DNA of 44,356 nucleotides, taken from assembly GCA_015711825.1 (NCBI GenBank), contig JACVJD010000011.1:1-44356 (forward strand), written 5' to 3'. The stretch comes from Candidatus Solincola daggyaiensis (GTDB taxonomy: Bacteria > Actinomycetota > Geothermincolia > Geothermincolales > RBG-13-55-18). Positions within the stretch are counted from its first letter, which is position 1, and each line of letters starts with the position of its first letter. The notes under the pieces are model-generated. The model was not told the origin of the DNA. It was given only the letters and a program-made list of their open reading frames with translations, and did no database searches. Positions 16,191 through 21,607 of the stretch are shown piece after piece. Made by a program: the position numbers and the translations under genes.

Positions 16191-16562
16191 AAGCCTGGGG
16201 TCCGCGTCGAGTTCTACGGACCTGCCGTGAGACGCCGGGGCTTGGTCCTCCCCCAGGGCGCGGTGGGGGGCGGCGAGAGCGCGGGGCGTTCTCCGCCTTG
16301 CCGCCGAGCATGGAGGCGCGCACGGTCGCACGGAGCCAAACCCCATGGACGAAAAAAGATATTCCCGCTTTTCCCGGCGCCGCGAACTCGCGGCTCGCGA
16401 GGCAAGCCGACCATTACCGCGCCCCCGAAGGCAGCGCGCTCTTCTCCTTCATGCCCAACGCCGTCGAGCGCATGGCGCTTCGCGTGCCTATTTTCGCGCG
16501 CGCCGCCGGATGATAGGCTAAGGGCGCGGGGGAGAAAGCAGAAAAAGAGGAGGAGGGTCAAG
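16191..16562. other. Intergenic region, no gene seen
   Basis: A 372-bp gap between glpK and the esterase gene. It is GC-rich, with a GCCGCG-AACT-CGCGGC hairpin at 16379-16394 but no U-tract. No convincing small gene was found. Confidence 0.35.
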
Positions 16563-17309
16563 ATGGCGGAGGAAGTCTGGCCGGACGCTGAACCGTTTTC
16601 CTTCGAGGGCGGAAAGACCGGGGTGCTGGTGGTGCACGGGTTCACCGGCTGCACCCAGAGCATGCTGCCCCTGGGGAAGGGGCTGGCGGACGCGGGGTTC
16701 ACGGTGCTGGGGCCGCGCCTGCCCGGGCACGGCACCTCGGTGAAGGACATGGGCACACGCAAGTGGCAGGAGTGGACGGGAGAAGCCGAGAAGGGCCTGG
16801 AGGAGCTCCTGGGGCGCTGCGACAAGGTCTTCGTCACCGGCCTCTCCATGGGCGGCACCATAACCTGCTTCCTGGGGGAGCGCTACCCGGACGGCATCGC
16901 CGGTCTTATGCCTATAAACGCCGCCGTGGCCAAGCTCAACCCGCTCATGCCCCTGACCCAGTACGCGAAATACGTGCTCAAGACCATACCCGGTGTGGGC
17001 AGCGATATCAAGGACCCCTCGGCCAAGGAATCCTGCTACGACAAGGTGCCGGTGGCCGCCGCCGCGGAGCTGCACGCGCTGATGAAGGTCACCCGGCGGG
17101 ACCTGGCGAAGATCACCGCGCCCATCCTCGTGTTCGCATCGCGCGAGGACCACGTGGTTCCCACCACCAACGGCCCCTATATCCTCGAGCGCGTGAGCTC
17201 CGCCGACAAGGAACTGGTGTGGCTGGAGAACTCCTACCACGTGGCCACCCTCGACCACGACAAGGACCTCATCGTCCGGCGCTGCGTGGAGTTCATCAAC
17301 GCCCACTGA
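16563..17309 (+). CDS. Alpha/beta-hydrolase, Est30-like carboxylesterase/monoacylglycerol lipase
   Basis: A 248-residue cytosolic serine hydrolase with no signal peptide. The oxyanion segment VVHGFTGCTQSMLPLGKGL matches Est30/YvaK-type esterases. The nucleophile elbow is GLSMG, the acid is in ASREDHVVP and the histidine in NSYHVATLDHD, a pattern shared with thermostable monoacylglycerol lipases. It probably hydrolyses short-chain esters or monoglycerides. The ATG at 16563 follows GGAGGAGGG. Position after glycerol kinase fits a glyceride-salvage theme, though a 372-bp gap separates them. Confidence 0.88.
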   Translation: MAEEVWPDAEPFSFEGGKTGVLVVHGFTGCTQSMLPLGKGLADAGFTVLGPRLPGHGTSVKDMGTRKWQEWTGEAEKGLEELLGRCDKVFVTGLSMGGTITCFLGERYPDGIAGLMPINAAVAKLNPLMPLTQYAKYVLKTIPGVGSDIKDPSAKESCYDKVPVAAAAELHALMKVTRRDLAKITAPILVFASREDHVVPTTNGPYILERVSSADKELVWLENSYHVATLDHDKDLIVRRCVEFINAH

Positions 17310-17528: not shown

Positions 17529-18338
17529 TCAGGAGCCGCGCAGGGTGCCGGCGAAGACCTGCCAGGCGAGCACGGACTTGGCCAGCAGGCTCAAGATGAT
17601 GTACACCCTCTCGCCGTAGAGGTAATCGGACCACTTCCCCACCTTCTTGTACTGCAGGACCATGTTGATGGCGAAGATGTTGAAGAAAACGAAGAGGATG
17701 GGGAGGATAAAATATACGAAGGTGGGCACCTCCGCGTCGGGGTTGGCCACCGCCGAGAAGAAGTACAGCGCGATCACCACCCAGGGCACGATGCCCGCCA
17801 GGCAGCCGAACCAGAAGGCGGTCCAGTCCGTTTTCCGCGTGGTCTGGTTATGCAGCTCCATCATCCACCCGAAGAGGATCATCATCATGTTGAGGAAGAA
17901 GATGAGGATGAGGGTATTGAGGTCGAATACCCCGGACAACATGGCTATGACCACGATCATCAGCGAAGCGGTGATGGAATACTCCATCCAGCGGGCGTAG
18001 TTGGCGCCTTTCTTGAGGTTGGCCACGTACCATGCGAAAACCCGCGGCAAGGTGAGGATGAGCAGCGCCAATCCGCTCAGGAGCAGGAAAGCCGCCACCA
18101 TGGGCCCCAGCCTCACGCTACCGACCTGTGAGGGAGGAGGCAGGGTGCCGTCCCGGAAGGGGTCGCTCTTCAAGTAGTTTGTGGTGAGGGGCAAGGTGCT
18201 GTCGTTGCTCAGGATGAGCATGAGCACCCCCTGCAGCAGCAGGATCACGCCCACCACGCCGTTGAAGGGACGCAGTTTCGCGTACCTCGCCTCGCCTTCC
18301 GTCCCTTGCGGGCCTTCCGTTGCCTTTCCGGTTCCCAT
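17529..18338 (-). CDS. Heliorhodopsin
   Basis: A 269-residue seven-helix membrane protein of the heliorhodopsin family, which binds retinal through a Schiff base and has the N-terminus inside the cell. The helix-7 motif YGERVYIILSLLAK carries S250-x3-K254, the retinal lysine context, followed by SVLAWQVFAGTL. E119 in RWMEYSITASLM on helix 3 is the expected counter-ion. LRPFN-GVVGVILLLQGVLMLILSND is the typical first helix. The family lacks known ion pumping and is viewed as photosensory or enzyme-regulating. The ATG at 18338 has AAGGAGGTGG upstream; the longer frame to 18479 is not needed. No carotenoid or retinal synthesis gene is present nearby. The neighbours are a HTH-cupin regulator and an esterase, neither with a known link. 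Confidence 0.93.
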   Translation of the reverse strand: MGTGKATEGPQGTEGEARYAKLRPFNGVVGVILLLQGVLMLILSNDSTLPLTTNYLKSDPFRDGTLPPPSQVGSVRLGPMVAAFLLLSGLALLILTLPRVFAWYVANLKKGANYARWMEYSITASLMIVVIAMLSGVFDLNTLILIFFLNMMMILFGWMMELHNQTTRKTDWTAFWFGCLAGIVPWVVIALYFFSAVANPDAEVPTFVYFILPILFVFFNIFAINMVLQYKKVGKWSDYLYGERVYIILSLLAKSVLAWQVFAGTLRGS

Positions 18339-19365
18339 TACGCCACCTCCTTGCGCCTTGCGCATTTTTCGCACATTACGGTCCCGCCGTTCATCATGCT
18401 TTTTGCGCTGCCATCCGCATAGGGGCCTCGGCTCCCCCGCCGCATACCATCGCTTAACCTTCCCTTGCGCCGTCGGCAAGCTTCGGTTGTCGGCTACGGG
18501 CTTGCGTCAAGGCCTCCTCGTTACTTTTAGAGATCAACGACCGCCCCTTTCGGCCTCCGCCCTTTGCGCTCTCGCTTCGCGAGACCGCCACAAAGGCTTC
18601 CCTCGCGTGACGTCTCGCGAGTCCCTTGGGGAAACCGCCCCGCCCGCCTCCTCTTTCCCTTGGGCGATGGCTTGCCGCCTTGTAAGGTCCCTTCCCTCCG
18701 CGCCCCGGCTTCGAGAGGCCGCAGATCAAGGTCTCCTTACCGTTATGCCTCGCTGATCGCCTTGGGAAATCACCCCGCGCCGCCTCTCTTCTTTGTCACG
18801 TGAGCAATTCTTACCCATCTCTATGCCGCCTAAACATGGCCCGGTTATGCGGGCGCCCGCGGTCCAGGCTCGAGGCCGACCGAGAATTAATGATGCGGAA
18901 AATCCTGACCTGCGTTTTCCCAGCATATAGCTGGCATTTAATGGTATTTTTACGGCATTATCCCTATTCTCGGTCACCCTGTCGAGGCCGGCGGGCCGAG
19001 ATCCCGCGTCGTGCAAGCGGGCGAGACGACGGGAGGCGGAACTGCCGGAGATGGGAATATATGACAAGATAAGGGTGATAGCGAGATACACCGACATGCA
19101 AGCGGGCAAGGCAAAGCGGCTTAGCCGTCTCGCTTAAGCGCCCCGCCGCATCCGGGCAGACCCCTGATCCGTGCCCGAGCCGGTCATGCGGTCATGCGCG
19201 GTAAGACCGAACAGCGATTCCGACACACGCTCATGGATGTATAGATCGGAAACCCCGCTCGTGCGCTCGAGTACGGAAAGTCCGGGCTAGGATCGGGGCA
19301 TATGTCCACGCCCGGATCTGCCGCAAGCCGGCCGTTGGTTGGTGTTCTTAAAGTCAGGGCGGATC
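18339..19365. other. Long non-coding stretch upstream of heliorhodopsin
   Basis: About 1 kb with no recognisable gene. It holds small hairpins (TCTCGC-TTC-GCGAGA near 18570; CTCGCG/CGCGAG around 18602-18621) and two imperfect copies of a roughly 35-bp element starting CCTTGGG(G)AAA at about 18623 and 18759, each followed by a C- and CT-rich run. Purine/pyrimidine skew is marked. It may be a long 5' leader of the heliorhodopsin mRNA or remnants of lost genes. Confidence 0.4.
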
Positions 19366-19902
19366 CTACACCCCGGGCGGGGTGATGACCATGAGCAATA
19401 CCCCCTCGCCGTCCGAGAGATTTTCCCAGTTGTGGGGCTGTTCTCCCCTGAAATAAGCGCAGTCGCCCTCCCTTAGATGGTGAGCGGCGCCACCGACCTC
19501 GAAGCGAAACTCCCCTCTGAGCACCATGGCGAACTCCTCCCCGCCATGCTCCACGGGATCCTTGTACCTGGCGTGGGGCCTGAAGGTGCCGAGCAAGCCC
19601 TCCATCTCGGCCTCGGGATCGTCCACAAGCAGTTCCAGGGTGACGTCCTCCGGGCTCTCGATCCTGCGCCTGTCCTCTATCCTGTAGGTGATCCTCCTCC
19701 CCGAGGATTCCGAGAAGACGTCCGCCAAGGTCACGCCGTAAAAGCCCAACAGCTTGATGAGGTTCTTTACCGTGATGCTGCTCTTGCCCGTCTCCAGCTT
19801 GCTGAGGAAGGAAACGGAGAATCCCGTTTCCTCTGAGACCCTGCGGATGGATAGCCCCCTGCTTTTCCTCAGCTCCCTGAGCCTTTCGCCAACGTCATCC
19901 AT
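19366..19902 (-). CDS. XRE-family HTH regulator with C-terminal cupin domain
   Basis: A 178-residue regulator. The N-terminal XRE/Cro helix-turn-helix spans about residues 5-60 (LRELRKSRGLSIRRVSEETGFS, SFLSKLETGKSS). A cupin_2 barrel occupies about 95-175, with HGGEEFAMVLRGEFRF and the second motif GDCAYFRGEQPHNWEN containing metal-type His/Glu residues. Proteins of this plan (PuuR, YdcN types) sense a small metabolite and usually repress a neighbouring catabolic operon. The ATG at 19902 is used; its ribosome site (GGTGAAAG) is moderate. It points leftwards toward heliorhodopsin, about 1 kb away, but co-transcription is not evident. Confidence 0.9.
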   Translation of the reverse strand: MDDVGERLRELRKSRGLSIRRVSEETGFSVSFLSKLETGKSSITVKNLIKLLGFYGVTLADVFSESSGRRITYRIEDRRRIESPEDVTLELLVDDPEAEMEGLLGTFRPHARYKDPVEHGGEEFAMVLRGEFRFEVGGAAHHLREGDCAYFRGEQPHNWENLSDGEGVLLMVITPPGV

Positions 19903-20227
19903 GTGCTTTCACCGCTATCCCTATATCGCCTTGGCAACATCGTATATCACCCATACATCGCTGAGCCCTCAGCCCGGGAAAACAACCCCTGCCGTGCCCG
20001 AAAGGGAGGGGAAATGAGCTTGTCTGCCGCCTCCGCCGCCCCTTCGCTCAGGACGGCAGTCCCATATACCATCTTTCCACCTCGTCTTCGCTATATATTT
20101 TCCCACCAATGTTACTGTATAGAATAATATTATTATAATTATAGTAATTGGCTATCGTCATGATGTCAAATAGCCATACTTCGTTTTTGTTAAGAGTATT
20201 TATTATGACCTGTGAGGGATATTTCAC

Positions 20228-20258
20228 GCTTGCGAATCCCCTTAAGGGATTCCCAAGC
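20228..20258. repeat. 31-nt near-perfect hairpin
   Basis: GCTTG-c-GAATCCC, loop CTTAA, GGGATTC-c-CAAGC. Twelve base pairs are broken by one C-C mismatch. No U-tract follows on either strand, which argues against an intrinsic terminator. It lies in the AT-rich island. Confidence 0.55.
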
Positions 20259-20384
20259 AGGGGAGTAAAACGCCTTTCATGACCATAACACGCCTGGGTT
20301 AATGGGCTCTTGTATTCATACTACAGCATTATTCTCAGGGTGAAGATAGCTAATTATAATAAGCAATGAGATTGTGTTAGTTTT

Positions 20385-20615
20385 ATGAATAACAGAAGGA
20401 AGAGGCTCGTGAAGGTTATCAACAGCATCGGGGACGCGGAGCTTCGTAGTCTCGCCGAGAAGCGATATCCCTACCTTTCGCGTTACGGCCGTGGTATGCC
20501 CTTGCACCTGGCGTGCTGCCTCTGCTACCCGAGGCAGTCTGAGGGCAAGGCGAAAGAGAACGACTCGCCCGTCGCCTGGGACCGGCATTTGATATATAAA
20601 CGGGAGGCGGTCTAA
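20385..20615 (+). CDS. Doubtful small hypothetical protein
   Basis: A 76-codon frame (MNNRRKRLVKVINSIGDAEL at the start, ACCLCYPRQ in the middle). It has no visible ribosome site and no recognisable family. It is basic, with a Cys pair. It is listed because the AT content just before it and the frame's start context differ from the GC-rich shadows elsewhere, but it may not be expressed. Confidence 0.2.
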   Translation: MNNRRKRLVKVINSIGDAELRSLAEKRYPYLSRYGRGMPLHLACCLCYPRQSEGKAKENDSPVAWDRHLIYKREAV

Positions 20616-21046
20616 GCCTACCCGAAAGCGTCATTGCCTGATATCGTCCCTTCGCGCGGTCCCGGGCGACGGGATCCCATTTGCCGGACGGAACCTCGCG
20701 CCCTTTTCGCAACGAGGGCTCCAGGGGAAGCCGGCCTCCCAGGGACGTTGGTCCCGACCCGACACATCCTGCGACCAAGATGGGCGCATTTTTCCCCTAT
20801 TCCTGATCGCCTTCCACCTGCCCTCATTTCGGAATCCCGCACCCCCCGCCCCGGGTCCTGCCGCCGTCGCGGTGACGGCCCCCGGAGCTCCCTTACCTTC
20901 TTCCGCTTTGCCCACGGCCACCTCGCTCTCCCTTGCTCTCGCGGAGCCGCCAAGCCAGGCCGGGTCAGATCGGTCGGGCGTAGGACAATTTGTCACAACC
21001 TGAACGTGCAGCTATCATATTCATCGTTATCTATGAGTGATCGCCA

Positions 21047-21052
21047 TACAAT
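21047..21052 (+). promoter_or_regulatory. Candidate -10 box for the DUF3343/activase transcript
   Basis: TACAAT matches five of six consensus bases. Initiation about 7 nt on would leave a leader of only about 9 nt before the ATG at 21068, consistent with the absence of a ribosome site there. No good -35 is seen. Confidence 0.3.
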
Positions 21053-21067
21053 TCATTAGTTATTCTT

Positions 21068-21364: not shown

Positions 21365-21607
21365 ATGGAACGCGTGGAACACCTAAAGGAGCTGGTGCGG
21401 GATTACGGCATCGACGCGGTGGCCTACTACGCCCTGCAGTTCTGCGATCCCTACACCGTGGAGGCCTCAGGGGTACAGCGCGAGCCGGAGAAGCTGGGCG
21501 TCCCCTTCCTGTATTTGGAAACCGATTACAGCGCCGAGGACGTAGGCCGGCTCTCCACCCGCGTGCAGGCGCTCCTCGAGATGGTGGGCAGCGAGAAGAA
21601 GGCTTGA
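21365..21607 (+). CDS. HgdB/BcrB-family 2-hydroxyacyl-CoA dehydratase, C-terminal piece only
   Basis: Eighty codons that match only the last domain of the 2-hydroxyacyl-CoA dehydratase D-component family: ERVEHLKELVRDYGIDAV, YYALQFCDPYTVEA with the conserved FCDPY, and ETDYSAEDVGRLSTRVQALLEM. Family members are normally about 350-430 residues, so most of the protein, including other cluster ligands, is missing. Family-like sequence (AIRAIKTPD) continues upstream of the ATG, in frame, back to the DUF3343 stop. The only good ribosome site (AAAGGAGGGAGGAGG at 21323-21337) is too far from the ATG. It is either a remnant, a read-through extension of DUF3343, or a genuine mini-protein. Confidence 0.6.
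   Translation: MERVEHLKELVRDYGIDAVAYYALQFCDPYTVEASGVQREPEKLGVPFLYLETDYSAEDVGRLSTRVQALLEMVGSEKKA

Follow-up and report, generated by a model that had tools for sequence, protein, structure and literature searches.

The heliorhodopsin (HeR) 48C12 comes from a sunlit, aerobic habitat. The locus analyzed here lies in a 44,356-nucleotide stretch of DNA (henceforth the window) from Candidatus Solincola daggyaiensis, a member of the Actinomycetota class Candidatus Geothermincolia, and raises the question of what a protein of this kind does, and from where it could obtain retinal, in a class that looks anaerobic by its gene content. The source genome (G000) is a 190-contig draft of 3.0 Mb with a completeness of 95% and an estimated contamination of 2.2%. 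Among the genomes compared with it are the sister genome of isolate Ch49 (G001), Candidatus Solincola sediminis (G003), isolate SURF_21 (G012) as well as Candidatus Geothermincola primus and secundus (G016 and G017). Three genes of the window are central to the argument:

17529 to 18338, minus strand: HeR gene, 269 amino acids (PF18761 with E 4e-99, alignment to 6su3 and 6is6, structural model with Foldseek, residue survey)
19366 to 19902, minus strand: regulator with an XRE-family HTH and a cupin domain (PF01381 and PF07883), in tandem with and upstream of HeR
16512 to 17309, plus strand: Est30-like alpha/beta hydrolase (PF12146, E 5e-25), convergent with HeR

Identity, inheritance and surroundings of the gene

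The membership of the encoded protein in the HeR family is confirmed by homology, fold and invariant residues. The reading frame starts with an ATG at 18338, a short distance behind GGAGG, and ends with TGA. Its product covers PF18761 completely (profile positions 1-242 of 242; E 4.1e-99, 331 bits at a cut-off of 26.7), and phmmer relates it to TaHeR (6is6, 3e-75) and 48C12 (6su3, 7e-63). An AlphaFold2 model built from 45 relatives (pLDDT 88) adopts the seven-helix HeR fold: its ten best Foldseek matches are all HeR structures, with TM 0.84-0.87. Profile, phmmer and Foldseek searches hence bear out the preliminary description, which had read this frame, without giving a strand, as a heliorhodopsin and had named S250, K254 and E119 as its hallmarks. 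These residues, which form the SxxxK motif of helix 7 and the glutamate counterion of helix 3, are found at exactly these positions and are invariant among 170 distinct HeRs drawn from this class, the wider phylum, Chloroflexota, Patescibacteria and archaea; the same holds for the retinal-contact residues. With the 48C12 number in brackets, the window protein retains K254 (K241), E119 (E107), S250 (S237), Y104 (Y92), R116 (R104), E161 (E149), E243 (E230) and W259 (W246), and the counterpart of 48C12 N16 is kept as well. Retinal would accordingly sit on K254 with E119 as its counterion, and homology to 48C12 and TaHeR suggests an inverted topology with the N terminus inside.

Of the 31 genomes of the class, 24 have a HeR match, if a decayed copy (G015) and a copy cut by a contig end (G026) are counted, as do 14 of the 15 genomes of the window's family; HeR is therefore an old gene of the class that has mostly been inherited vertically and no oddity of a single genome. 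Moreover, dN/dS against four relatives, congeners included, amounts to only about 0.09-0.19 (simple counting method, dS 0.5-0.8), so the gene is maintained under purifying selection. The copy in G015, a genome of the same order, has decayed to two fragments (L135; about 68 and 28 amino acids), both below the cut-off.

In the window's family, the gene order runs from DUF3343, 2-hydroxyacyl-CoA dehydratase and BcrAD ATPase to the tandem of HTH-cupin regulator and HeR, followed by the convergent alpha/beta hydrolase, glycerol kinase and an AMP-binding enzyme. Could the regulator or the hydrolase, both of which had been proposed as partners, be dedicated to HeR? The HTH-cupin gene adjoins HeR in tandem in 10 of 14 family genomes, and a published survey (PMC11109279) that sorts HeR operons into ten groups assigns one of these to alpha/beta hydrolases. 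However, synteny extends over the entire block between BcrAD and glycerol kinase, so the adjacency of the regulator says little, and three genomes (G004, G008, G010) keep HeR but have no HTH-cupin gene there, which marks the regulator as a dispensable syntenic neighbor; in G003, the contig breaks off too early. The hydrolase lies on the opposite strand and is therefore no operon partner, HeR has a promoter motif of its own in its upstream gap (see below), and in families f3-f5 none of the window's neighbors adjoins HeR. Neither candidate rises above background synteny, the comparison of orthologous neighborhoods found no conserved operon partner beyond the synteny of the family, and we attach very little probability to a dedicated partner. 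The same gene order bears on a further reading, namely that the HeR gene is a product of contamination or misassembly or is itself decaying. The fragmented draft, its estimated contamination and the decay in G015 could be cited in its favor, but the intact reading frame, the purifying selection, the identical order in sister genomes and the near-complete occurrence in the family oppose it; the synteny makes this reading very unlikely, and we give it next to no credence.

Two further observations concern the surroundings. The window holds only the C-terminal 80 amino acids of the 2-hydroxyacyl-CoA dehydratase D subunit (21365-21607; PF06050 positions 270-341 of 342), and the stretch from this gene to DUF3343 measures 54 bp compared to 0.4-1.4 kb in most family relatives, where a larger part of the gene would fit in; this points to either a truncated gene or an assembly collapse. 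A second long gap separates the HTH-cupin gene from DUF3343 (19903-21067) and has a GC content of 0.54 as opposed to 0.64 in the window.

Retinal supply and the Schiff-base cavity

The source of the chromophore was sought in the whole class. None of the 31 genomes contains a match to SQS_PSY (PF00494, which covers phytoene synthase), to the RPE65-type carotenoid oxygenase (CCO; PF03055) or to Blh (PF15461); the first profile was detected in seven control genomes and one other genome of the phylum, the second in two controls, and the third in 11 of 198 phylum genomes. CrtI and lycopene cyclase were left out of this search because phytoene synthase was absent. Gaps in drafts cannot account for the missing genes across all 31 genomes. 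It had been noted beforehand that no retinal or carotenoid gene lies near HeR, and with controls that work this now extends to the whole genome and the class. Retinal from Blh, a CCO or carotenoid synthesis was rejected on these grounds: the class has preserved a retinal protein although no known route to retinal is encoded, and retinal, if used, must be of outside origin. Furthermore, no COX1 (haem-copper oxidase) exceeds the cut-off in the 31 class genomes and cytochrome bd is missing from the 30 that were searched; the class therefore looks anaerobic, as the low-oxygen metabolism read from the neighboring genes had implied. HeRs in anaerobes without retinal genes are already known and thus not new in kind: they are on record for strict anaerobes (PMC8612252) and for Bathyarchaeota, which have no complete retinal pathway (PMC7110647), and the host of TaHeR likewise lacks retinal synthesis, for which a lateral fenestration of the protein has been proposed as the entry of exogenous retinal (PMC9385722).

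The helix-1 signature, by contrast, is not as complete as the preliminary description had it. Compared with 48C12 (6su3), the window protein has L33 in place of H23, the conserved histidine of helix 1, L92 in place of H80 in helix 2, and T123 in place of S111. Both cavity histidines of the canonical HeR relay are hence replaced by leucine, while the end of the relay is retained in Q36 (Gln26) and W259 (Trp246). The 170 distinct HeRs comprise 155 His/His proteins, 14 Leu/Leu proteins and one Leu/His protein, with no other residue at either position; one of the 14 (L082) is shifted by a single column in the automatic alignment, but its Leu/Leu state is evident by eye. S111T accompanies the leucine pair in 11 of the 14 cases and is absent from all other surveyed HeRs. 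The two cavity histidines are consequently conserved in most HeRs but do not define the family, and the double-leucine variant appears to be new.

The position of Gln26 also varies within this set. It is occupied by glutamate in five of 13 Leu/Leu proteins (L023, L026, L027 and L124 from G017, G024, G014 and G012, respectively, and L069), possibly as a new protonatable group. Elsewhere, glutamate at this position was seen solely in L139 (G057, Actinomycetota family f20), which is also the only mixed HeR: H23 is leucine and H80 is kept. This protein is possibly an intermediate.

How often has the replacement occurred? In a HeR tree that was built with the state columns (H23, H80, S111) taken out, the residues at H23/H80 must change state five times, and at least four of these changes are forced by well-supported branches. 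Within the class, the Leu/Leu proteins form separate groups, one of them comprising genus g1, to which G012 and G014 are joined and which includes the window, the other belonging to f3/f4; a single origin within the class, i.e., one clade, was rejected by the AU test (p 0.006). Since His/His relatives stand between the two groups, the change is convergent or repeatedly reversed. H23L and H80L co-vary in the same direction in four of four independent pairs, which with about five events are too few for significance.

What these replacements entail can be gauged from the literature on the two solved proteins. In simulations of 48C12, the Schiff-base proton of the M state resides on His80/His23; H23F and H80F slow the photocycle, with no O state in H80F, and the TaHeR double mutant H23F/H82F still forms M (PMC9726877). 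From crystal structures determined at two pH values, a signal path has been proposed in which His23 turns, water is displaced, and Gln26 is freed together with the tryptophan (Trp246) that lies close to the extracellular surface (PMC9385722). On the other hand, H23A, H23S and H80A retain the wild-type color with its 550 nm band, and both histidines were called not essential (PMC6951262). By analogy with these mutants, Leu/Leu HeRs should still be able to bind retinal. Because both cavity histidines are leucine, they should, however, lack the canonical histidine proton store and the His23-Gln26-Trp246 relay, which would result in a slower or shortened photocycle, an O state that hardly or never accumulates, and an output via another route. 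Given the alanine and serine mutants, the change may be of small consequence.

Upstream gap, promoter motif and predicted regulon

The gap 5' of HeR spans 1027 bp in the window (GC 0.61) compared to 174-537 bp in relatives, and had been described as structured. A structured RNA was rejected: the gap folds no better than shuffled sequence (z -0.67), yields no Rfam match, has no second copy in the genome and finds no alignable counterpart in relatives. It is thus neither structured beyond chance nor conserved nor repeated. What the otherwise unalignable gaps of the family have in common is the element GTTTA-N14-(R)GGNAANAAT, whose copy in the window reads GTTTAGGCGGCATAGAGATGGGTAAGAAT on the minus strand and gives rise to two additional features:

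18807 to 18835, minus strand: SigB/SigF-type promoter motif GTTTA-N14-GGGTAAGAAT, equivalent to GTTT-N15-GGGTA (pattern search, leave-one-out scan, published consensus)
18339 to 18806, minus strand: putative 5' untranslated leader of HeR, deduced from the distance between motif and start

With its exact GTTT-N15-GGGTA, located 468 bp before the HeR ATG, the window copy falls within the mycobacterial SigF consensus GTTT-N14-19-GGGTA (PMC4694148); the SigB consensus is given as GTTTAA-N12-14-GGG(A/T)A(A/T) (PMC8346170). The distance to the start codon is 412 bp in the sister genome G001 and 38-87 bp in G002, G006 and G010. In 18 genomes, the strict pattern produces 39 forward matches against six in the reversed control, with zero to six forward matches per genome, and in G000, G001, G002, G006 and G010 one of only two to five genome-wide matches stands ahead of HeR (chance about 2e-4 to 4e-4 each). 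Of 23 HeR upstreams from the class, 16 have a site at p <= 0.03 when scanned with a leave-one-out weight matrix (the shuffles set a floor of p 0.005), the motif having been defined on the HeR upstreams of the family. It is missing in G003 (p 0.1), G015 and most f4/f5 genomes. A role as a general HeR feature was rejected: outside the class, only five of 149 HeR upstreams carry the motif, two of them from the same genus, compared to 1.1 expected, which makes it mostly class-specific. From the observed motif, we infer a dedicated general-stress promoter of the SigB/SigF type that drives the transcription of HeR. Such a promoter ahead of a HeR appears to be new.

A fitting sigma factor is encoded in the source genome (TIGR02980, 277.8 bits at a cut-off of 234; contig C57), with a STAS-domain gene nearby. 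The presence of the HeR motif tracks that of the SigBFG factor (Fisher p 0.003-0.005), and similar sites precede the sigma operon in several relatives; in G010 and G014, the motif is present and the sigma paralogues stay below the SigBFG cut-off. This factor thus probably recognizes the motif. A small open reading frame between the promoter-like site and sigB resembles the anti-sigma factor RsbW by eye; it has no Pfam match, and we do not claim it as such. Behind the motif, a glutaredoxin-like gene was found in four genomes (L167, L158, L175 and L156 on G000 contig C28, G001 contig C33, G002 contig C8 and G005 contig C4, respectively), which would fit a redox-stress regulon. Peroxiredoxin-like genes (G006, G007), a rubrerythrin-like gene (G010), a glycosyltransferase, CbiM and a cytochrome-b5-like lipoprotein are also preceded by it.

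Candidate role and relation to known systems

On balance, we lean, with a little more confidence than doubt, toward a scavenged-retinal HeR under stress-promoter control that acts as a light sensor with an altered photocycle. The inverted seven-helix membrane protein would bind retinal through K254, with the counterion provided by E119, whereby the cell, itself without retinal synthesis, would take up the chromophore from its surroundings. From the SigB/SigF-type promoter, HeR would be co-expressed with redox-defence genes such as glutaredoxin, and its most likely role would be to tell a stressed, oxygen-sensitive cell of its arrival in light. The Leu/Leu cavity would slow the cycle, leave little or no O state and direct the output along a non-canonical route. 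A bolder proposal, which we advance tentatively and at less than even confidence, generalizes the cavity: Leu/Leu(/Thr) HeRs might represent a recurrent, naturally selected sub-type with a different photocycle and no histidine relay, employed here as a scavenged-retinal sensor in the SigB/SigF regulon of strict anaerobes.

Two rival explanations concern the way in which the protein works. It could be an ordinary HeR that loads scavenged retinal and passes its signal on as 48C12 or TaHeR do, with H23L/H80L being nearly neutral: the 550 nm band of H23A, H23S and H80A (PMC6951262), the M state of TaHeR H23F/H82F (PMC9726877) and the conservation of everything else agree with this. Yet neutral drift predicts mixed states and varied residues, while 14 Leu/Leu proteins face a single mixed one among 170, and the roughly five independent changes, with S111T confined to the Leu/Leu set, point the same way, even if they are too few for a formal test; we consider near-neutrality rather unlikely. 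More radically, an anaerobe that never meets retinal might use the apoprotein, or the protein with another ligand, in a light-independent manner, e.g., as a membrane regulator or a lipid or metal binder. The lack of retinal genes in the class and the origin of relatives from groundwater, mines and sediments (according to record titles) would suit such a role, but without a chromophore in Schiff-base linkage, the invariance of K254, E119, S250 and the retinal contacts would be difficult to account for, and the fenestration proposed to admit exogenous retinal in TaHeR (PMC9385722) would offer a way in. We regard a light-independent role as improbable.

The preferred reading, a scavenged-retinal light sensor, touches on disputed questions, as both the function of HeR and the residue that carries the M-state proton are under debate (PMC9726877 versus PMC6951262). 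The double replacement of the histidines, which arose some five times while the rest of the protein stayed intact, provides wild-type proteins that test the role of H23/H80 directly. Moreover, a class of anaerobes that keeps HeR and its lysine without a retinal pathway renders the idea of a scavenged chromophore testable, and the stress promoter supplies a concrete hypothesis on when HeR is produced.

Among known systems, the mycobacterial SigF and Bacillus SigB regulons (PMC4694148, PMC8346170) share with the window the GTTT-N15-GGGTA promoter and redox-defence genes in the predicted set. They differ in that no HeR-bearing SigB/SigF-type regulon is apparent in the accessible parts of the searched literature naming both heliorhodopsin and a sigma factor; here, the connection of sigma factor and motif is the putative one made above. 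The MORN-HeRs of Dethiobacteria and the HeRs of Bathyarchaeota (PMC8612252, PMC7110647) likewise belong to anaerobic monoderms and sediment archaea without a complete retinal pathway, whereas the window HeR has neither an N-terminal MORN nor a Zn-ribbon fusion, and no adjoining histidine kinase was seen. 48C12 from a freshwater actinobacterium (6su3, 6uh3) is of the same family and fold at about 46% identity, and all of its catalytic carboxylates, Arg, Lys and Trp are kept in the window HeR, which differs in having Leu, Leu and Thr instead of H23, H80 and S111. The closest solved relative is TaHeR of the Thermoplasmatales archaeon SG8-52-1 (6is6, 7u55; about 51% identity, TM 0.87): it has the same Schiff-base lysine, glutamate counterion and serine, and its host is also reported to lack retinal synthesis, but its cavity differs in His23, His82 and Ser, the counterparts of Leu33, Leu92 and Thr123 in the window protein.
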